Positions 16,467 to 39,890 of a DNA stretch of 39,890 nt are shown here, piece by piece. The notes below the pieces were generated by a model that did not search any database, was not told the origin of the DNA, and saw only the letters and a program-made list of their open reading frames with translations. The position numbers were made by a program, and so were the translations under genes. The stretch's first letter is position 1; every line of letters starts with the position of its first letter. This DNA comes from Acidobacteriota bacterium (GTDB lineage: Bacteria; Acidobacteriota; Blastocatellia; RBC074): positions 1-39,890 of the forward strand of contig JACPYM010000101.1 in NCBI GenBank assembly GCA_016196035.1, given 5' to 3'.

Positions 16467-17534
16467 TTATAAATCTCCGGGCGTTTGCGCGCGCTGCCGG
16501 TACACATAGGCCAGCAACTCCGCCACGACCCGGAAATACTCCGGGGGAATCACGCTATGCACGTCCACCTCGTGATAGAGGGCGCGCGCGAGCGGTGGGT
16601 TTTCGATGACCGGCACGTCGTGCGTCTTAGCGATTTCGCGAATGCGCAGCGCCATCCAATCCGCGCCCTTGGCCACCACCAGCGGGGCCATGCTCTTGGC
16701 GCGGTCATAACGCAAGGCCACGGCAAAGTGCGTCGGGTTGGTAATGACCACATCGGCGCGCGGCACTTCTTGCATCAACTGCCGCATGGCCAGGGCGCGC
16801 GCGGCGCGGCGGCGTTGCCCTTTGATCAGCGGGTCGCCTTCCTGTTGCTTGTACTCGTCCTTGATTTCCTGCTTGCTCATGCGCAGCGACTGTTCGTGCT
16901 TGTACCAGCCGTAACCGTAATCGAGCGCCGCCAACACCAAGAGGATGCCACCGGCCCGCCAACCCAATTGACTGATCAAGGCACCTGTGGCTTTGAGGGT
17001 TTCGGGCGCGCGGATGCCCACCAACGCGGCGGCTTGCGCTAGGGCGCGCGTGAACAAGCCGTAACAGGCCAGCCCAATCCCGGCCAGCACCAGACACTGT
17101 TTGGCCAACTCGACCAGCCGATCCAAGCCAAACACTTTTTTCCAGTTTTCTGCCGGATTGAACCGTTCGGCGTTTGGCAGCAAGGCTTCGGGCGTCAAGG
17201 TGAAACCGCCTTGCGCAAAATTGCTGGCCAGGCTGGTTAATAACAGTGTGGCGACGATGGGTAAGGTCAACAACGCGAAATGACCGGCGGCTGCCAGCAT
17301 AATTCCGTGCGCGGCACTCAGCGTGAGTGACGTTGGTTGACTGATCTGCTGGGCGATACTGGTAATCAAGCGGCCACTGCGCGTGACAAAATCCGGGCCG
17401 GTCGCTTCGAGCATCGCGAGCGCCGCCAAAAAACTGGCCGCCGCCGGTAATTCCGGACGCCGCGCGATTTGCCCTTTGCGCCGCGCATCCTCGCGGCGCT
17501 TGGGCGTAGCCTTTTCTGTCTTGTCGCTGGCCAT
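16467..17534 (-). CDS. flhB: FlhB flagellar export gate and substrate-specificity switch (355 aa)
   Basis: FlhB is part of the type III export gate and switches export from hook to filament proteins. The N-terminus (ASDKTEKATPKRREDARRKG) is the family signature. About four membrane segments lie between residues 30 and 210. The cytoplasmic domain carries the self-cleavage site NPTH at residues 266-269, so it should cleave normally. The switch partner, FliK, is encoded at 27416-32188. The gene follows fliR with a 107-base gap filled by heptamer repeats. flhA, usually next, is not in the window; downstream is a hairpin and then the chemotaxis block. Confidence 0.96.
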   Translation of the reverse strand: MASDKTEKATPKRREDARRKGQIARRPELPAAASFLAALAMLEATGPDFVTRSGRLITSIAQQISQPTSLTLSAAHGIMLAAAGHFALLTLPIVATLLLTSLASNFAQGGFTLTPEALLPNAERFNPAENWKKVFGLDRLVELAKQCLVLAGIGLACYGLFTRALAQAAALVGIRAPETLKATGALISQLGWRAGGILLVLAALDYGYGWYKHEQSLRMSKQEIKDEYKQQEGDPLIKGQRRRAARALAMRQLMQEVPRADVVITNPTHFAVALRYDRAKSMAPLVVAKGADWMALRIREIAKTHDVPVIENPPLARALYHEVDVHSVIPPEYFRVVAELLAYVYRQRAQTPGDL

Positions 17535-25265: not shown

Positions 25266-25452
25266 TAGATCGATTCAATTGCGTAAAGGGTAAAGCGCGG
25301 AGCGCCGGAGCAGTACCGCGACAGTGATGGAGCGGCCTTGGTGACTCCGACATTGTTCCGTTAGGTCTGTGGCGTCAGGCTCCGCTCCATCACTATCGCG
25401 GTACCGTACCGCTGCGCGGTGCTTACCATACACGCAAATGAAAACCGATCTA
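25266..25452. repeat. Family A palindromic repeat with matching ends, adjoining the flgE stop
   Basis: The element begins TAGATCGATTCAATTGCGTA and its other end, read on the minus strand, is TAGATCGGTTTTCATTTGCG. The two ends are imperfect inverted repeats over about 60 bases, including CAGTACCGCGACAGTGATGG inside. It is about 187 bases long, with no coding capacity. Its right end supplies the TAG stop of flgE. The form is that of a small non-autonomous mobile element. Confidence 0.7.
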
Positions 25453-26718
25453 AATAATCTGAATCACGTCTTGCAGGGTTTGGTTGATCGTCGTGATCAC
25501 GCGTGAATTCGCCTGGAAACCACGTTGGGCGACGATCAAATCGGTAAACTCATTGGCGATGTCTACGTTGCTCTGTTCCAGCACGCCGCCGATGATTTCG
25601 CCGCGTCCGCCCGTGCCCGCCGCGCCAATCGAAGGCGCGCCCGACGCCACCGTTTGGCCATACAGGTTGTCGCCCAAACGGCTCAGGCCTTCCTGCGAAT
25701 TGAACGTCGCAATCGCGACTTGCCCGACCGTGCGCGTCTGGCCGTTGCTGTAAACCGCGATCAACACGCCGTCGCCTTTGGGGCTAAACGAAAGCCCCGC
25801 CAGCGTGCCCGACGCAAAGCCGTTCTGTTCGGTCGCGGCCACCGCCGAGGTGGCGTTGTAATTGGTCAACAGACTTTGCCCCTTCGTGCCGTCCTCGTTG
25901 AGTTGATAGAGCGCGATGTCGAGGCTGGGCAGCGTGGCGCCCGCGAGTTTGGTTTGATCGGGCACGATGGCCAGCGTATTCGGCGCCGTCAATTGCCCAT
26001 TGGAATCGAAGGTCAGGTTGCCGGTCGCCGCCGCCGCGCCGCCGTCAATGCTGACTTGTGCGGCGTTGCCATCCAGCGTGGCCTTGACGGTATAAGCGCC
26101 GTCGCCGGTTTTGGTGTAAATCAAATCCATCGTGTGCGCCACGCCCAGCGAGTCATACACCTCGACGGGCGCGTGGAATTCGGCATTCACCGCATCGGTC
26201 GAACTGAGATTCATGTGGAACGAAGCTTTGCTGGTGACAACCGGGCTGGCGAATTGGCCGAGCGGCACTTGCAGCGAATTCAACGGCGCGCCCGGCGGAA
26301 TCGCGCCGTTATTAGCCTGATAGCCTTGCACCAGATCGCCGGTCGAATTCACCAGATGGCCGTCGCGGTCGAGCGTCAAGTCGCCCGCGCGCGTGTAAGC
26401 GGTGTCGCCGTTTTTCGAGGACACCACAAAATAGCCGTTGCCGCGAATGCCGGCATTGAGCGTCGAGCCGGATTCATCTAGCGAACCCTGGGTGAAATTG
26501 GTGGTCGTGCCTGCCGATTGCACGCCGCCGCCGATTTGCACGGCGAGGCCCGCGCCATTCAGCTTGGCATTGAGCGAATCGTGAAAGACGTCGGCGAAGT
26601 TGAGCGATTTGGCCTTATACGCCGTGGTGTTGGCGTTGGCGATGTTATTGCCCGTGACGCCGAGCGCCTCCGAGTTGGCCCGCAGGCCCGACAACGCGGT
26701 CGAAAAGGTAAGAGCCAT
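25450..26718 (-). CDS. flgE: FlgE flagellar hook protein (422 aa)
   Basis: FlgE polymerises into the hook, a flexible joint outside the cell. ATG 26718 has a strong GGAGGAA ribosome binding site. The N-terminus ALTFSTALSGLRANSEALGVTGNNIANANTTAYKAK and the C-terminus (SNVDIANEFTDLIVAQRGFQANSRVITT) are the family hallmarks that form the axial coiled coil. The middle domain is Ala/Gly/Ser/Thr-rich and moderately long. FlgE is larger here than in FlgF/FlgG, supporting the hook assignment. The gene follows flgD after 267 bases of repeat-bearing sequence. Its TAG stop is the first three bases of a family A repeat end. Confidence 0.95.
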   Translation of the reverse strand: MALTFSTALSGLRANSEALGVTGNNIANANTTAYKAKSLNFADVFHDSLNAKLNGAGLAVQIGGGVQSAGTTTNFTQGSLDESGSTLNAGIRGNGYFVVSSKNGDTAYTRAGDLTLDRDGHLVNSTGDLVQGYQANNGAIPPGAPLNSLQVPLGQFASPVVTSKASFHMNLSSTDAVNAEFHAPVEVYDSLGVAHTMDLIYTKTGDGAYTVKATLDGNAAQVSIDGGAAAATGNLTFDSNGQLTAPNTLAIVPDQTKLAGATLPSLDIALYQLNEDGTKGQSLLTNYNATSAVAATEQNGFASGTLAGLSFSPKGDGVLIAVYSNGQTRTVGQVAIATFNSQEGLSRLGDNLYGQTVASGAPSIGAAGTGGRGEIIGGVLEQSNVDIANEFTDLIVAQRGFQANSRVITTINQTLQDVIQII

Positions 26719-26985: not shown

Positions 26986-27309
26986 CTAAGCGGCGGGCAG
27001 GGAGATGTCGCCCAGCGCCGCTTGCGCTTTTTGCGTTGATGTCTGTGGTTTTTGCAGATTCAGCAATTGATTGATGCGGTCATTGATGCTGGTGAGTTGC
27101 TCCAGCGAATTGAATTGCGCGAGTTGCGCGACGAACTCCGCTCCTTGCTGCGGTTCGAGCGGGTCCTGATGTTTCAATTGCGCGATGAGCAAGGTCAAAA
27201 AGGTGTTCGCGTCCACGCCTTTGTGCGACTTGTTCGCCGTCGTGTCGCTGCTGGCGGCAGCCTTGCCGGTCGTGGTCAACGCGGTCAGGTCTTGCGGATT
27301 GATCGTCAT
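26986..27309 (-). CDS. flgD: Short FlgD hook-cap protein (107 aa)
   Basis: FlgD is the scaffold cap on which hook subunits assemble. The typical conserved N-terminal FlgD motif is present at residues about 33-75 (DANTFLTLLIAQLKHQDPLEPQQGAEFVAQLAQFNSLEQL). The family often has a further 100 or more residues forming an Ig-like/Tudor part; here the protein ends about 30 residues after the motif. So only the core domain is kept, as in some Gram-positive FlgD proteins. ATG 27309 gives a normal N-terminus; the longer reading is unlike FlgD. It follows fliK by 106 bases. Confidence 0.92.
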   Translation of the reverse strand: MTINPQDLTALTTTGKAAASSDTTANKSHKGVDANTFLTLLIAQLKHQDPLEPQQGAEFVAQLAQFNSLEQLTSINDRINQLLNLQKPQTSTQKAQAALGDISLPAA

Positions 27310-27415
27310 AATGTTTTCTCTGCGCACGCGCGGCGGCGTGCTGCCTAAAACCCGCCGTGAATGGCTGCACATGGGGCAGGCGTCAAGCCTGTCCGCCGGA
27401 CGTTGTGCAACAGCT

Positions 27416-30400
27416 CTAAGCGAGCAAATTGATGAGCCTGTCGGCGGCGCTGGTTGCGCCACCGTTTGGTACCGGCTCGAAGTCAAAAGATTCAGCCTCA
27501 GGAATGCGGGCTGGAGGCGTGGGAGCGTGTTGTGAGTCTTGCCCGCCGGCGTGCCAGCCTTGTCCCGGTTGGTCGGGGCTGGTGTTGATGTCCAACTGCC
27601 CGACCTGCAAGCCGGCCTGTTCCAGCGTGGCGCGCAACTGGGCCAGTTCGCTGCGTAACACCTGCGTCGTCTGTTCGCGCTCGACCGTCAGCCGGGCGCT
27701 GAAACGGCCTGCCGTATCGCAGCGCAACTCGATTTCCACTTGCCCCAATTCGCGGGGCCGCAGTTTGAGCCGGATGGTGCGCGGCTCATTGGGCGCGAGT
27801 TCGGCGCTGGCATTAATCAAAGGTTCGGCCAGTTGCCTAGCCACGTGGCCGTCATTGACGTCACGCATGTCCACCTGCTGTGCAACTGCGGTGCCACGCT
27901 CGGACGCCGACGGCGCAAGAGCGCCGGTGACGTTGCGCGGCGGTTCCTCGGTGTTTTCCCGGATGGTTTCGCGCGCGGCCTCTGGCGCGGCAGTCACAGA
28001 CGAATTCAAACCAGCGTGCCGCAACGCTGGCGCAAGCTCAGAGGAAAATGCCGCCGTTGTCGTCACGGGTTGCGCCGCCTGTTCCGGCGATGGCTGGGAT
28101 AGTGTGTGGCGTTCAACGGCCCGCGCATGCTCAAGCGCCACGCGTGGGAGCGCCAAATCGCCCGTCGCGCCCGGCAGCGGAGTTGTGCCTGTCAAACCCG
28201 GCGGCGGGGCGGCCACGCGTTCCAAGGGCTGTGTTGGCGCGGGTTCCGTGCTGGCTTCCGGCGGCGGCAAGACGGGCGCACCCACATCTGAAGCGCTGTT
28301 TCGCCCGCTTGAGTTTTCAGGTTGCAACATTTCGAGGTTGGGGATAGGCAGCGGCGGACTCACGCCGCGCAACGGAAATTCAGCCGCGCTCGCGTTAGGT
28401 GGCGCGGGCCGGGAGGCCGGTTCCGTAACGCGCTTGAGCGCCGCCGTCCAACGCGCCGCGCTGGCGTTTTGCGCGGCTGGTTGCGCTGTTATCCGCAGGG
28501 CTGGCGCGGGCGCGGCAACGATGTTGGTCGTCCAGACACTGGCGGAGGCGGGCGGCGAAAAATAAACGGGCACGCTGGTGTTGGCAGGCTGCATTGCCAC
28601 TGCCGGAGCGGCACTGGGCGCCGCTGCCGCCAGCATTGGTGTCAATGTCCCGACACCTGCGGGGTTAAAGGGCGACACTGGCGGGTCAGGAATTTGGCGC
28701 TCGCCCAGCCATTCGTCCGTTGCCGCGGGCGCGCTGCTGGCGGATTCGGTCGCCACCGGCGTGCTGAAAACGTGCGTGGCAACCGCGCGTGCAGTCACTG
28801 CCGGCGTGCCTGTTTCAAGCGCGGCCAAATCCGCCAGCAAGGACTGTGGCTGTAAGCGTTCGCGCGGCGTGGCTGGTTGATTCATGGCTGGTTGATTCAT
28901 GGCTGGTTGATTGAAGACCGGCCCTGCGCTTTCGGCAGAAGCAGGCGCACTTATTAGCGGGGGCGCTGCGGTGAAGGCCGTGTCAGGCGCGCCGGGTGAC
29001 TGCGAAAGTGCCGCAGCAAAGTGCCGTTCAATGGCGGAGAACGTTGTGCGCAACAGCTCCACGCCGAACCTGGGCGGCCTGGACGCGACCTCGCACTGCG
29101 CCAATGGGTTGATCCCTTGCGCGCTTTGTGCAGGGTCAATCAGCGGCTCGGGCAATAGCTCAGATGTGGGTTGAATCGGCGGTTGGTCTGCGTCTGTTTC
29201 CGCGCTGCTGGCTGGTTCTGTATCAGGCGAGTCCGGAGAATTGATCACTGGCAGCGCGGCTGGCGCTGCCACGACGGGCTGCAACGTGGGCCGCTGAGCC
29301 GCCGCCACCGGATTGGACAACTCGTGCTCGAAGGCGCGCTGCGTTTGCGGCGCCGCAGTCGTAGGCAATTGCAACACTAACTGGAAGGTGCGTTGTCCGG
29401 GGCTGCTCGCCCGCGCGCTCAGCGTGGTCGTGAACGGCAGGCGCTGGACGCGTTCGCCTTCTTCTTTCACCACGCGCCAGGCTGGCGTTGGTTCAGCCGC
29501 CACGTCGTTCGGCGTGGTGGCGGCGAACGTCTGTGGCGCGACTGTCGGAATGGTTGTTTCTTGGGGAGCAGGCACGTCTGGCAGTTGATCCTCAACAGCC
29601 ACTGCGATCTGAGCCGCTGCGGCAATTACTGAAGCGGCTGGCGGTGCAACAGGCACAGGCGTTTCTGTCATTCCCGACGCGGGCGGCGCAAGGGGCACGC
29701 GCGGCGCGACGGCTAACTCTGGCAGCGACTCTAACCCCGTGGGCGCGGCTTGTTCAGTGACCGCCGCGAAAGCGTTGTTGATCACCGCGACCTGTGACGC
29801 AGCAGTTGTGAGCATTGCCGTGGGTGTCGCCAAGTTGGCTGCTGTGGGTGGCGTTTCCACAAGCAAAGCTTCCGGTTGCGGCTTGGCCAGCACCGCATAC
29901 GGCAGTGTGTTGGGCGGCACAACCGAGGCTTCATCGTTCAGCACCGTGTTCAGCACCGTGCGCGCGGCTTGGCTCGCTGTGAGTGGCGTCTTCAGGGTTT
30001 CTGTCGTTGCAACGCTGCTGGCATCGTTTGTCTGCTCAGGCATCTGTTCAGGCGTCTGCTCAGAGCGAATCAGCGGGCGCTCTGATTGCGCTGTCGTTTC
30101 GTGCACGGGTTCTGCAACTGGTTGCCGATCACGCGCGGCTGATGGGAGTGAAGCGTTGATCAGTTTGGCGACGCGCACAGCCGGTATCGCCGGGTTTGGC
30201 GAGATGGCAGCTTGGTCAAGCGGCGTCGCGCGTTGAGCGGGTTGGCCAAAGGTGAAGACTGGCTGGCCCGGCAAACCGGCAGCAGCGAAACCGGGGTAAG
30301 GCGCAGGGTTGTCTGGCGGCGCAACTTCAGGCTGCCGGGACGTGGCCGAAACGTTAGGCGCGTTTGTCTCAACCGCTGGCTCAACCACCACGGCGAGTTG

Positions 30401-32188
30401 TTCAGACGCAGCGTGGACGGTGGCGAAAGAGACAGACTGGTCGGGCGGCGCGGCTGGCGGTTCTTCGTGAGGAGCCGTGGGCGCAGGCAGTTTTTCGCTC
30501 AGGAAAACGACGTTGGCGTTTGCACGCGGCGTCTGTCTGCCGACATTCGCGCCATTCGTAGAGGCCGAAGCGGGCGGCTGCGCCGGGGCAGTCGCGAGCT
30601 TGTCAAAAGCTTCCGGTGGTCTGACTGCCGCCTTGCCGGCGTTGGGCTGAGCGGCTTGATGCATTGGCTTTGGCGCGTCGTTTGGCGCGTCGGTGGCGGT
30701 TGCAAGCCGGGCGGGGCCGCCGGATGTCAGCGGCTTCAACAAGACTGCTTCAGACTCGCGGGACGGCAGTGGCGACTCAGCGTTGCGCTCGAAGGCGGGC
30801 GCTTGAGCCTGCTCAGTGGGGCTGGCGTTGTGTGCGGCTTCGATTGGTTGCGGGGCGGGCGCGTCACCCGTTTCTGCAAGCTGGCCAATGCCGGGCGCGA
30901 CTTCGGCATTGTTGCCGGAGTTCTTGATTGACGGCTGTTCGACGTTTGACGTGACAACCATCTGAGGCAGCGGAAGACTGATTGGCAGCAGCGCGGCAGT
31001 GCTGGGCGCGTCGTCTACCTTTTGATCAGCCGCGCTGAGCGCGTCGTCGGCCAGTTGCGTAGGCTGCGGTTCGGCAGCTTCAGTGCGTGGCGCTGGCGTG
31101 GGTATTTTGCCTGGCGGTACGTCAAAGCTGCTGAGCGTGGGCAGGCTGGCTTGCGAATCTATTGTTGACCGCGTTTGTGGCGGCTGAGCAAGCGTGACTT
31201 TTTCGGCAAGCAGGCGGTCATGTTGCTTGGGCAGCGTGTTGAGCGGTTCGGCAGGCGCCTGCGCCGCAGTGTGGTTGGGTTCGGCGGCTGGCGTGTCCTG
31301 CGTTTCAGCGAAACCACCGTCCGGTTGCGGCATTGGTTGGATGGTTTCCGGTATTGCCTTACTGCGCAGGTGCGCTTCAACCGGCAAGGGTGGCGTATGC
31401 AGCGGCGTTGCTGGCGGTAGCGTTTGAACGAGCGCCACGGTGGTTTGGGCGTTGTTCAGGTTGGTTGCCGCCAGTGCTGGCGGCTCAGCAGGTGCGCTGT
31501 CAGGCATCCCGGTTGCGGGTTCGTTGCTGGCTATGAGTGTCGCGGTCTCAACGCGTTGCGCGTCCGGCTGCCAGTTGGGCGAACGAGCAAGGGCGGCCCC
31601 CGTGGTTTCGCGCGGCAGGTTGCGGTCTAGTTGCCATTGCTTGCGCACCGGGGGCGCTGTCAACGGCGCAGCATGTTGTTGGGCTTGGGGTGCGGCGTGC
31701 AGTAGCAAGCCCGCAGGTTCAACTGATTTGTCCGCTGGCGGGCCAGATGGCGTTGTTACGAACGGCGGCGTTGCGAGCGGTGGCGCGTCGTGCCTGGCGG
31801 CTGTTTCGCGCTCGACCGCTGCTGGCGCGGTGTGATCGGAAGGGGCGGCGGGCGGCAATGTTGCAGCCGCTGCCAGTGGTGTTGCCGGTGGTGTTGCCGA
31901 TTGTGCTTCCTGTAATGCTGTTGCTTGTAACGCAGGCTCAATTTCCGGGCTTGCGGCCGTGGCGACCGGCTCCGGCGTGGCGGGTTCGTTTGTTGCTGCT
32001 TCAGCGCGTTCGTTATGGCTGGTCTTCCGGCCTTCTGCCGGCCAGCTTGCCGTGCCCTCGCTCATCTGTTCGAGCAGCAACGCGGCAAAGTTGTTGGCGC
32101 TGCCGTCGGGCGGCGCTGTTTTATCAGCGAGCGGCTTATCGGCGAATAGGGCAGGCGTGAGAGCGGATGAAAAAACCAGCTTAGACAT
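27416..32188 (-). CDS. fliK: Giant FliK hook-length control protein (about 1590 aa)
   Basis: FliK is exported through the growing hook, measures its length and triggers FlhB to switch substrates. ATG 32188 has GGAGGAA 5 bases upstream and overlaps the fliJ end by 8 bases. The last about 125 residues hold the conserved FliK C-terminal domain (RTIRLKLRPRELGQVEIELR, then LRSELAQLRATLEQAGLQVG), which touches FlhB. Everything before is Ala/Pro/Thr/Glu-rich, low-complexity and probably unfolded. FliK of Salmonella has 405 residues. A 15-base unit is repeated three times near 28870-28912 (MNQPA). The extreme length is uninterrupted over 4.7 kb with no stop, so it is not an artefact of one frame. Confidence 0.93.
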   Translation of the reverse strand: MSKLVFSSALTPALFADKPLADKTAPPDGSANNFAALLLEQMSEGTASWPAEGRKTSHNERAEAATNEPATPEPVATAASPEIEPALQATALQEAQSATPPATPLAAAATLPPAAPSDHTAPAAVERETAARHDAPPLATPPFVTTPSGPPADKSVEPAGLLLHAAPQAQQHAAPLTAPPVRKQWQLDRNLPRETTGAALARSPNWQPDAQRVETATLIASNEPATGMPDSAPAEPPALAATNLNNAQTTVALVQTLPPATPLHTPPLPVEAHLRSKAIPETIQPMPQPDGGFAETQDTPAAEPNHTAAQAPAEPLNTLPKQHDRLLAEKVTLAQPPQTRSTIDSQASLPTLSSFDVPPGKIPTPAPRTEAAEPQPTQLADDALSAADQKVDDAPSTAALLPISLPLPQMVVTSNVEQPSIKNSGNNAEVAPGIGQLAETGDAPAPQPIEAAHNASPTEQAQAPAFERNAESPLPSRESEAVLLKPLTSGGPARLATATDAPNDAPKPMHQAAQPNAGKAAVRPPEAFDKLATAPAQPPASASTNGANVGRQTPRANANVVFLSEKLPAPTAPHEEPPAAPPDQSVSFATVHAASEQLAVVVEPAVETNAPNVSATSRQPEVAPPDNPAPYPGFAAAGLPGQPVFTFGQPAQRATPLDQAAISPNPAIPAVRVAKLINASLPSAARDRQPVAEPVHETTAQSERPLIRSEQTPEQMPEQTNDASSVATTETLKTPLTASQAARTVLNTVLNDEASVVPPNTLPYAVLAKPQPEALLVETPPTAANLATPTAMLTTAASQVAVINNAFAAVTEQAAPTGLESLPELAVAPRVPLAPPASGMTETPVPVAPPAASVIAAAAQIAVAVEDQLPDVPAPQETTIPTVAPQTFAATTPNDVAAEPTPAWRVVKEEGERVQRLPFTTTLSARASSPGQRTFQLVLQLPTTAAPQTQRAFEHELSNPVAAAQRPTLQPVVAAPAALPVINSPDSPDTEPASSAETDADQPPIQPTSELLPEPLIDPAQSAQGINPLAQCEVASRPPRFGVELLRTTFSAIERHFAAALSQSPGAPDTAFTAAPPLISAPASAESAGPVFNQPAMNQPAMNQPATPRERLQPQSLLADLAALETGTPAVTARAVATHVFSTPVATESASSAPAATDEWLGERQIPDPPVSPFNPAGVGTLTPMLAAAAPSAAPAVAMQPANTSVPVYFSPPASASVWTTNIVAAPAPALRITAQPAAQNASAARWTAALKRVTEPASRPAPPNASAAEFPLRGVSPPLPIPNLEMLQPENSSGRNSASDVGAPVLPPPEASTEPAPTQPLERVAAPPPGLTGTTPLPGATGDLALPRVALEHARAVERHTLSQPSPEQAAQPVTTTAAFSSELAPALRHAGLNSSVTAAPEAARETIRENTEEPPRNVTGALAPSASERGTAVAQQVDMRDVNDGHVARQLAEPLINASAELAPNEPRTIRLKLRPRELGQVEIELRCDTAGRFSARLTVEREQTTQVLRSELAQLRATLEQAGLQVGQLDINTSPDQPGQGWHAGGQDSQHAPTPPARIPEAESFDFEPVPNGGATSAADRLINLLA

Positions 32189-32636
32189 TTTCTTCCTCCA
32201 GGCCGCGCCGCACGATGTTGGCGGCCATTTCGTCCAGAAAATTTTGTTCGGCTGACGCGACTTCGGCCTCGTGGCGTTCTTTTTGGCGTTGTTTGAGCTG
32301 GCTGGTGATTTCGGCTTCCCGCGCGGCCTCAATCGCGCTGGTGCGCACGGTTTCGCGCTGTTGTTCCAGTTCCGTCAAACGTTCGCGCAACGCGCGTTCG
32401 CGTTGCGCCAGAAAATCCAAGTAGCCCAGTTGCAACGCCAATTCGTCGGCGTAAACCTGCCCGGTCGCGCGGGCCATTTTGCTTTCCGCCGTTGCGCGCT
32501 GGCGTTGCAATTCTTCCAACGCCGCCTCAGCGGCGCTGACGGCGGCACTGGCTTGCAGCAAGGCGCGCTCGGCTTCGTCGCGCCGTTGCGCGCGCAAGTT
32601 GTGCACCGTTTGCAATCTGAACCTGAAGCGTTTCAT
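32181..32636 (-). CDS. fliJ: FliJ flagellar export chaperone/stalk protein (151 aa)
   Basis: FliJ is a coiled-coil protein that binds the FliI ATPase ring and FlhA and helps move substrates. The whole protein is a predicted long helix pair rich in Ala/Glu/Arg/Gln (RFRFRLQTVHNLRAQRRDEAERALLQ at the start). This fits the family in length and composition. Its ATG overlaps the fliI stop (ATGA), and its end overlaps fliK by 8 bases. Sequence conservation in this family is low, so the call rests on the N-terminal motif and on position between fliI and fliK. Confidence 0.9.
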   Translation of the reverse strand: MKRFRFRLQTVHNLRAQRRDEAERALLQASAAVSAAEAALEELQRQRATAESKMARATGQVYADELALQLGYLDFLAQRERALRERLTELEQQRETVRTSAIEAAREAEITSQLKQRQKERHEAEVASAEQNFLDEMAANIVRRGLEEENV

Positions 32637-33985
32637 CGCGCGCCCTCAAGACTGAACTCACGCGTGAGGCGTTCGACGACGGCTGGGAATTCGACCGGTT
32701 CTTGCCGATCCTGGCGCAGAAAGCTGTTGATGCGGTCGTATTGCGCAATGGCCTCGTCAATACGCGGGTTGGTGCCTTTTTGATAAGCCCCGATATTGAT
32801 CAGGTCTTCGGCGGCGGCATAGGTGGCCAGCATCTCGCGCACGCGCGCGGCGGCGGCGGCTTGCGGCTTGGTCGCGACAGAATTGAACAGGCGCGAGGCG
32901 CTGTGCAGCACATCAATGCAAGGGTAATGATTGCGCGCGGCCAAGGTGCGCGACAGGATGATGTGACCATCGAGAATGCCGCGCACGGCATCGGCGATGG
33001 GTTCGTTCATATCGTCGCCTTCGACCAGCACGGTGTAAAAGGCTGTGATCGAACCGCCGGTGCCAAAATTGCCCGCGCGTTCGAGCAGGCGCGGCAGCAG
33101 CGCGAACACCGAGGGCGTATAGCCTTTGGACGAAGGCGGTTCGCCGGCCACCAAACTGATCTCGCGTTGGGCCATCGCAAAGCGTGTCAGCGAATCCATA
33201 ATCAACAGCACTTGGGCGCCCGCATCCTTGAAGTATTCCGCCACCGCCGTCGCCACCAAGGCCGCGCGAATGCGCACCAGCGGCGAATCGTCAGAGGTCG
33301 AGATGACCAGCACGGAGCGTGCCAAACCTTCGGGGCCGAGTTCGTGCTCGACGAATTCGCGCACTTCGCGCCCGCGTTCGCCAATCATCGCGATGACGTT
33401 GACGTCGGCGGTCGCATGTTTGGCCATCATGCCCAATAGCGTGGATTTGCCGACGCCCGAACCGCCGAAGATGCCGATGCGTTGCCCGGTGCCGACCGTC
33501 AGCAAACCGTCAATCGCGCGCACGCCCGTGCCCAGGGCTTGCGTGATGTTGGCGCGCGCCAGCGGATTGGTGGAACGCCGATGCAACGGATAAAAACCCG
33601 CATGTTCGACCGCGCCCAATTCATCGAGCGGTTCACCCAGCGCATTGATGATGCGGCCCAGCATTTTCGGCCCGACGGGCGCTTCGGCGACTTTGCCCGT
33701 CGCCACGACCGTATCGCCCGCGCGCACGGCGGGCATCGGGCCGAGCGGCATCAACAGCACGGTCGAATCGCGGAAGCCGATCACTTCGAGCACTGTATTC
33801 AGTTCGCCCGTGCGCCCTGCCAAATAGCACAATTCGCCCACCGAAACCGACGGGCCTTGCGATTCGATCACCAACCCGACCGCGCGTTTGATCGTGCCGC
33901 TCAGCCGCACCGGATCGAGATTCGCCAAGCGTTGAAAGTAGGAGGAGAAAGGGGCGGTAATGCGGAGCGGGCCGGTGTTTTCCAT
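32633..33985 (-). CDS. fliI: FliI flagellar export ATPase (450 aa)
   Basis: FliI hydrolyses ATP to help unfold and deliver export substrates at the gate. Walker A is at residues 174-181 (GGSGVGKS) and Walker B near 260 (VLLIMDSLTRFA). Before these is the ATPase beta-barrel domain and GPKMLGRIINALGEPLD; after them is the conserved GEPPSSKGYTPSVFALLPRLLERAG stretch. All catalytic features are present. ATG 33985 gives the usual length; the frame continues upstream through a repeat element and is not counted. It lies 269 bases from fliH, an unusually large gap for these partners. Confidence 0.96.
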   Translation of the reverse strand: MENTGPLRITAPFSSYFQRLANLDPVRLSGTIKRAVGLVIESQGPSVSVGELCYLAGRTGELNTVLEVIGFRDSTVLLMPLGPMPAVRAGDTVVATGKVAEAPVGPKMLGRIINALGEPLDELGAVEHAGFYPLHRRSTNPLARANITQALGTGVRAIDGLLTVGTGQRIGIFGGSGVGKSTLLGMMAKHATADVNVIAMIGERGREVREFVEHELGPEGLARSVLVISTSDDSPLVRIRAALVATAVAEYFKDAGAQVLLIMDSLTRFAMAQREISLVAGEPPSSKGYTPSVFALLPRLLERAGNFGTGGSITAFYTVLVEGDDMNEPIADAVRGILDGHIILSRTLAARNHYPCIDVLHSASRLFNSVATKPQAAAAARVREMLATYAAAEDLINIGAYQKGTNPRIDEAIAQYDRINSFLRQDRQEPVEFPAVVERLTREFSLEGAR

Positions 33986-34061: not shown

Positions 34062-34240
34062 AGCCCTGAAAGGGCGACATTCAATAGCCGGGGGCAACGC
34101 CCCCGGAGCGTGTGAAGAAGGCTCCCCGGCCCTGACAGAGCCGCATTTGAAGTCGGATGCGACCCTGACAGGGTCGAGGAATCACGCGCGCCTTTCCGTG
34201 GGCACTGCCCAGGGCTATTAAATTTCGCCCTTTCAGGGCG
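34062..34240. repeat. Family B repeat between fliH and fliI
   Basis: The ends AGCCCTGAAAGGGCGA and CGCCCTTTCAGGGCG are inverted copies. Inside are the hairpin CCGGGGGCAACGCCCCCGG at 34088-34106 and shorter stems. A second copy starts at 39773. It opens the FliI frame upstream but adds no recognisable protein. Confidence 0.75.
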
Positions 34241-39503: not shown

Positions 39504-39772
39504 AAGCATAGGTTTGATGGAAAGGGCAGTTGAAAAGAATTCTGCCCGCGCTGGTTGCGATTGAGAAAAGCTGTGAAACCCGGTTGCCGGGCGCTGTTTG
39601 TCGGCTCGTTGTGTTGCTGCGTCTCGCGCTGGTTCGGTTGCGTGGAGGTGTTTGGTGCACAGGCGATTGTCGGCATCACGGCAATCCGGCTTCAGAGTGT
39701 CACGATTTTGACGCCAGGGTAGCGCAACCTGCCGAGCATTCATTTCTACACAAGTCTACTGGCTCCGAGAAA
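39504..39772. other. Upstream region of flgB, no gene seen
   Basis: About 270 bases lie before the promoter. This is where enhancer sites for a sigma-54 activator might be found, but I could not identify a repeated site. Short frames on both strands have no recognisable protein. Confidence 0.4.
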
Positions 39773-39890
39773 AGCCCTGAAAGGGCGTAATTCAATAGCC
39801 GTGGGCAACGCCCACGGAACGGTTCGGGAAGAATTTTCGGCCCTGCCGGGGCCGCATTCGACGTCGAGTCCGGCCCCTTCAGGGCCGTAG
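39773..39890. repeat. Family B repeat at the window end (partial)
   Basis: The sequence begins AGCCCTGAAAGGGCGTAATTC and carries the hairpin CCGTGGGCAACGCCCACGG, matching the element at 34062-34240 in order and motif. It continues to the window edge. Confidence 0.7.

Follow-up and report, generated by a model that had tools for sequence, protein, structure and literature searches.

The flagellar gene cluster analyzed here, from a genome of the class Blastocatellia (Acidobacteriota), contains a gene for a FliK protein of exceptional length, and this raises the question whether the gene encodes a genuine, single-chain hook-length control protein and, if so, what kind of hook such a protein would specify. 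The window, that is, the whole stretch of DNA that was analyzed, is the entire contig C101 (39,890 bases) of a 9.59 Mb genome in 139 contigs that is 96.9% complete. The cluster lies on the minus strand, where the genes for a rod protein, FliE, FliF, FliG, FliH, FliI, FliJ, FliK, FlgD and FlgE are followed by those for an HDOD protein, MotA, MotB, FliL, FliN, FliO, FliP, FliQ, FliR, FlhB and by chemotaxis genes. Thus, fliK adjoins fliI-fliJ and flgD-flgE inside the flagellar cluster, and the order fliI-fliJ-fliK is that of E. coli. The genes of immediate relevance are:

16467-17534, minus strand: flhB, with an NPTH motif, encoding the partner of the FliK switch domain (PF01312, E 1.5e-117, the only match in the genome)
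25450-26718, minus strand: flgE, hook protein of about 422 amino acids (Pfam FlgE D2 and other domains)
26986-27309, minus strand: flgD, hook cap, 107 amino acids from the ATG, N-terminal domain only (Pfam FlgD N)
27416-32188, minus strand: fliK, hook-length control and export-switch protein of 1,590 amino acids (Pfam match, open frame, overlap with fliJ and GGAGG at the start)
32181-32636, minus strand: fliJ (Pfam FliJ)
32633-33985, minus strand: fliI, export ATPase (Pfam and sequence), with its probable start at the ATG (33985) rather than at the TTG (34258)

The best relatives of FliI align from about residue 87-104 of the TTG-extended frame, and, among named genomes, a Pyrinomonadaceae MAG (L051) gives the top match, at 67% identity. 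Between fliH and fliI (34063-34239), we observed a dispersed palindromic element, with 45-nt arms that are 84% complementary and are spaced by 87 nt, which occurs also at about 39769-39885. When the TTG-extended FliI was searched against its own genome, 51 of the 55 matches fell in the first 124 residues, that is, in the palindromic element, with the same place frequently matching on both strands; the element may mislead automatic gene callers into an erroneous extension of fliI across it. The FlgD protein is short at 107 residues, and frames of 104-117 residues are found in three relatives from the same class.

The open reading frame of fliK as listed (27416-32332, minus strand) starts with a TTG and comprises 1,638 amino acids, and the frame from stop to stop comprises 1,652 codons. 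The realistic start appears to be the ATG at 32188, which is preceded by a GGAGG and lies 8 nt within the 3' end of fliJ. From this ATG the protein has 1,590 residues, so the uninterrupted frame of about 1,590 codons in the first-pass annotation was correct in position and strand, and the frameshift that it named as a possible refutation was not found, there being no frame break within the window sequence. The frame contains no stops, compared with 19 to 59 in the remaining five frames of the same stretch; 21.8 stops are expected from position-specific base frequencies (P(0) = 2.8e-10). Among 2,000 second-order Markov sequences, the fewest stops were 12, and none had an open frame. The absence of stops in this frame is therefore beyond chance, given its own composition (P ~3e-10).

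Codon usage gives no positive support for translation of the frame and is of no help as proof of coding. Synonymous codon choice in fliK scores -0.04 bits per codon, which is background-like and without host preference, compared with 0.16 to 0.41 in the 18 neighbouring genes tested, and we count this against the gene. The parts of FliK proteins that precede the C-terminal domain (85 entries, with one genome represented twice) score on average 0.066 below the neighbouring genes; the gap reaches -0.27 in L153 and -0.46 in L154, both of which are long Ala/Pro-rich FliKs, and some FliKs score above their own neighbours. Because FliK middles elsewhere are, on average, also low in codon score, the weak preference looks like a trait of a fast-changing FliK rather than a mark of non-coding DNA.

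What the frame encodes can be divided into three parts:

27578-27853, minus strand: FliKC switch core, residues about 1446-1537 (Pfam, model, structure and profile matches)
27854-32074, minus strand: Ala/Pro/Thr-rich middle, a presumed unfolded ruler or linker, residues 39-1445 (composition and disorder scale)
32075-32089, minus strand: FAALL, a candidate export (gate recognition) motif, F-x-x-x-hydrophobic, residues 34-38

The first-pass annotation had called the C-terminal domain a normal FliK domain, and the evidence bears this out. The Pfam domain Flg_hook (PF02120) is detected at residues 1465-1541 with an E-value of 4.6e-16 (58.9 bits against a cut-off of 29.8); in the genome-wide search, where this is the only PF02120 match, it scores 66 bits. 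The AlphaFold2 model of the C-terminal part, built from 49 sequences, reaches pLDDT values of 81-93 by block over residues about 1446-1537 and 69 over the entire model. The modelled core matches the solved FliKC structure 2RRL (Z 9.8 over 95 residues, 3.3 A) and the SS domain of the needle-length protein PscP (5CUK, Z 10.1), with all other structure matches at Z 7.2 or less; Foldseek gives an E-value of 9.2e-06, with TM scores of 0.36/0.44 when these are taken over whole chains, and a profile search retrieves 2RRL at E 1.1e-21. As modelled, the C-terminal core of this protein has the FliKC fold. The similarity to PscP brings up the ruler proteins of injectisomes, YscP and PscP, from which the window gene differs in lying in a flagellar cluster, in a genome with one FlhA-type and one FlhB-type match. 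With flagellar neighbours and no separate export gate (one FHIPEP and one Bac_export_2 match), identity as an injectisome ruler was rejected.

At the N-terminus, FAALL is a candidate hook-type export signal, at a place that appears to be conserved across FliKs. The pattern F-x-x-x-hydrophobic, which we take to be the residue-level form of the gate recognition motif, occurs about 25-45 residues past a Met in 81 of the 98 distinct FliKs, the window FliK counted, compared with 19.1 +/- 3.3 (maximum 29) in 500 shuffles in which the Met positions were kept. The FliK fragment of G007, a genome of the same family, has FASLL at positions 34-38, as counted by eye. Passages of one paper place the gate recognition motif of FlgD at residues 36-40 and report that non-polar residues at the extreme N-terminus are also required in FliK (PMC8983047).

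Between these ends, the protein is rich in Ala, Pro and Thr, as had been noted at first reading: residues 1-1440 contain 19.7% Ala, 15.5% Pro and 9.1% Thr, with hydrophobic residues scattered through a middle of fairly uniform composition. Composition and disorder scale agree with an unfolded, proline-rich middle, so residues 39-1445 are presumed to form the ruler or linker. No relatives of residues 61-1420 were detected at E 1e-3 among the open reading frames of all fetched loci, and searching with FliK itself brought up no named relatives of the protein. The proline spacing is as random, that is, without any sign of selection on it in the window FliK; in three of 15 FliKs from the genus g65 (L153, L179 and L192), prolines are more evenly spaced than in shuffles by one of three measures (P <= 0.012).

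A protein of this length in an assembly of 139 contigs could, in principle, result from an assembly, fusion or frame artefact that joined FliK to a second protein or to a repeat, an explanation to which we assign hardly any probability. The frame is single and open, of fairly uniform composition, with no sizeable repeats and no second domain; the N-terminal motif and the C-terminal core are in their usual places, and other long FliKs are similarly built. Positions 27000-32700 contain 8 short rows of tandem repeats with at most 2.9 copies, and the self-BLAST of the protein shows no off-diagonal pairs; tandem-repeat expansion was rejected as the origin of the length. Exact repeats are in excess over shuffles (6 vs 0.9 of 6 letters and 3 vs 0.07 of 7 letters), and this excess is taken to come mainly from the 15-bp array of 2.9 copies. 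In a genome search that scored 40 of 122 first-look candidates, there was no sign of a genomic repeat inserted in fliK and no second copy of the gene, the one match elsewhere being 48 bp long at 84% identity. A second domain was found neither in Pfam (E 0.001), nor in NCBIfam or PHROGs (E 1), nor among PDB sequences (E 1); for NCBIfam and PDB, the single-sequence searches failed to pick up even the FliK domain, which makes them weak tests of fusion. Splitting of the gene in relatives into FliK and another protein, which the first-pass annotation had also proposed as a refutation, was not noticed in the loci examined in an unsystematic look. It is just as improbable that the cell uses a shorter FliK, whether cleaved or translated from a start within the gene: cleavage is compatible with the sequence, but among the internal ATG, GTG and TTG codons up to residue 1450 a stretch resembling a ribosome site accompanies TTG 1046 alone, where the export motif is absent, so that a ribosome site and the motif occur together at the first ATG only.

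The NPTH motif of FlhB is the self-cleavage motif; the genome contains one FHIPEP (FlhA) and one Bac_export_2 (FlhB) match, with FlhA located on contig C128 together with an FlhF-like frame (called by eye), and contig C73 encodes FlgK, FliD and two proteins with a flagellin N-terminal domain. Also on C73, near flgK, a FlgJ-type rod-binding domain is fused to a Peptidase_M23 domain (L183:190-1263). Flagella are patchy in the family, with an FlhA match in two of 11 genomes (the window genome and G007), some of which are incomplete; among the 10 other genomes, FlhA is present in G007 alone and a PF02120 match in none, the FliK of G007 breaking off at the contig end, 490 residues in and ahead of any C-terminal domain. 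Elsewhere, the FHIPEP matches of G031 are limited to two partial ones, located in frames of 1,358 and 601 residues (G031:C41:76522-79261), an odd fusion or a remnant.

The claim of exceptional length was examined in PF02120 surveys of four phyla, which yielded matches in 816 of 1,485 genomes in sum: 105 of 396 in the phylum of the window genome, with all matches listed, 226 of 395 in the phylum of the Desulfuromonas record, 246 of 299 in that of the Paenibacillus record and 239 of 395 in that of the Nitrospira record. In many genomes, scoring covered a subset of the first-look candidates (for example, 13 of 42), so some matches may have escaped. In its own phylum, the window FliK (1,652 from stop to stop) stands far above the other 119 frames (median 557, 95th percentile 851, maximum 1,019), six of which reach 900, although these statistics take in fragments at contig edges and matches below the cut-off. 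The longest frames among the matches listed are 1,372, 1,256, 1,216 and 1,092 in the Desulfuromonas-record phylum, 961 in the Paenibacillus-record phylum and 831 in the Nitrospira-record phylum; in addition, a Holophagae MAG has a frame of 1,158, in which the domain match is weak, and a 'Bacteroidetes' MAG has one of 1,432 (locus L115). The window FliK is the longest among the matches listed in the four surveys, of which those of the three other phyla comprise the best-scoring matches, so that a longer frame could have gone unlisted there if its domain match was weak. Within the titles and abstract openings searched, a scope mostly outside subscription papers, a FliK of this length is not reported. 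Across the four surveys, many genomes have two PF02120 matches (in the own phylum, 14 of the 105 matching genomes have more than one), so a second FliK-like gene is common outside the window genome. A FliK domain match from the Nitrospira-record phylum (G1210:C153:957-1175) contains two in-frame TAG codons, suggestive of decay or recoding.

The protein belongs to the tail of a distribution that is long in several groups, not to a separate class: it is an extreme member of an ordinary protein family, correctly located and named. Compared with the Salmonella FliK of 405 residues (FliKN 1-207, linker 208-267, FliKC 268-405), with which it appears to share a proline-rich, presumably flexible middle, the FliKC fold, the FlhB partner and the N-terminal export signal, the window FliK is about four times longer, with the extra length located in the middle. 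The Salmonella yardstick of 405 residues and a 55-nm hook, against which the length was originally judged, is a short one, given the own-phylum median of 557, and frames of 1,200-1,432 exist in other groups. The longest of these (L115, 1,432; L170, 1,372; L171, 1,256; L172, 1,216) are likewise very long before the C-terminal domain. The long middles differ among themselves in composition; unlike the window FliK, L170 is Gly/Glu-rich and L115 is Ser/Thr-rich, and these proteins come from other phyla and are shorter.

How labile FliK length can be is indicated by the genus g65, for which 15 of 18 matching genomes were fetched (G330, G351 and G418 being left out) and starts were assigned by the motif rule. 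The total length of these 15 FliKs varies from 426 to 1,009 residues; about 50 residues at the start and about 126 at the end can be aligned throughout, whereas the middle spans 241 to 823 residues, with the long stretches confined to a few species. With both ends conserved, the ruler part can thus double or triple within one genus, and the exact length looks labile. The first-pass annotation took the stop-free length to suggest selection; the frame is open beyond chance and the composition is kept, but the range in g65 lends no support to selection on the length itself. Weak rank correlations of FliK length with the lengths of FlgE (0.27, 73 loci, p 0.02) and FlgD (0.32, 107 loci, p 0.0008), computed from stop-to-stop frames and uncorrected for kinship and duplicates, were set aside as a link between FliK and hook or cap proteins.

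Taken together, the domain, the gene order, the fold, the 2RRL profile match, the place of the export motif, the NPTH motif of FlhB, the single FlhA and FlhB, the late substrates FlgK, FliD and flagellin, the frame open beyond chance, the first ATG as the sole start with both a ribosome site and the motif, the same architecture in g65 and the frames of up to 1,432 elsewhere argue for a genuine FliK. On balance, we favor, by somewhat better than even chances, a genuine single-chain FliK acting as a long-tether ruler, with hooks longer than those of Salmonella and a middle that grew by drift; the identity of the protein and its class of mechanism, an exported tether plus switch, are the best-supported part of this proposal. 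By analogy with the work on Salmonella, the N-terminus would lead as the chain is exported through the growing rod and hook, its middle would act as tether and ruler, and the C-terminal core, on dwelling at FlhB, would switch export from hook to filament proteins. The roughly 1,000 extra residues would make a longer tether, and the middle has probably been lengthened by fast, composition-limited drift in which the frame and the composition alone are kept.

The quantitative expectations come from passages of several papers. The FliKN/FliKL/FliKC layout of Salmonella FliK is described along with an extended chain of 0.37 nm per residue that must span the hook and the 35-nm rod (PMC6972891); with engineered Salmonella FliKs of 363-785 residues, each inserted residue added 0.2 nm to the hook, which ranged from 42 to 135 nm (PMC6126814); ruler-domain length altered hook length proportionally (PMC13344023); and in a review, the unfolded FliKN chain is proposed to exert a pull on FliKC while being stretched within the channel (PMC9776203). 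Extrapolation of the slope would give a hook of 55 + 0.2 x (1590-405) = 292 nm, and full extension would give about 1,411 x 0.37 - 35 = 490 nm. We lean towards hooks that would be clearly longer than those of Salmonella; strict proportionality of the hook to FliK length is doubtful, and length-controlled hooks in the range of about 300-500 nm, which would be over twice as long as the longest controlled hook among the engineered ones in the passages of PMC6126814 (135 nm), seem unlikely. The extrapolation reaches twice the tested range of FliK lengths, the inserts that gave the slope were helical ones from YscP, unlike the Pro-rich middle of the window FliK, and FlgE is of ordinary size. According to the same source, Salmonella loses swimming speed once its hooks exceed 75 nm (PMC6126814), so hooks of 300-500 nm would need a different swimming mode.

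The main rival to proportional hooks is that the protein is a true FliK but hook length is independent of its contour length, with ordinary hooks and a middle free to drift in length, either because the Pro/Ala-rich chain is compact or partly gathered as it is drawn through, or because switching follows the export speed of its last part, as a clock would. We consider this a serious possibility, although one less probable than not, because it fits the three-fold spread of the middle inside g65, the proline spacing without positional constraint and the lack of relatives of the middle among the open reading frames of the fetched loci, as well as the dependence of switching on export rate described in part of PMC13344023; the linear shift of hook length by inserts and deletions in Salmonella, as reported in passages of PMC6126814, speaks against it. 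Quite improbable, in our view, is loose control, whereby a long chain would measure poorly and hooks would be variable and polyhook-like, as might be extrapolated from Salmonella, where control is loose with linker deletions and likewise with the two shortest of the engineered FliKs (passages of PMC6972891 and PMC6126814). Those passages mention no over-long FliK with loose control, engineered FliKs of up to 785 residues are described as staying tightly controlled (PMC6126814), and the late filament genes and the conserved switch domain argue for a working switch.

If long-tether control holds, the hook of this bacterium would be a long flexible propeller part, measured by a disordered chain of 1,400 residues. 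In the passages of PMC6126814, the ruler rule rests on engineered Salmonella FliKs of 363-785 residues, and the natural FliKs of 1,200-1,600 residues, together with the g65 series (total lengths of 426 to 1,009 residues and conserved ends), offer a direct test of this rule, with the greatest value in the genus-level series rather than in the window genome alone. Either hook length follows FliK length far past the tested range, or a disordered chain sets the length in a way that is not simply proportional.
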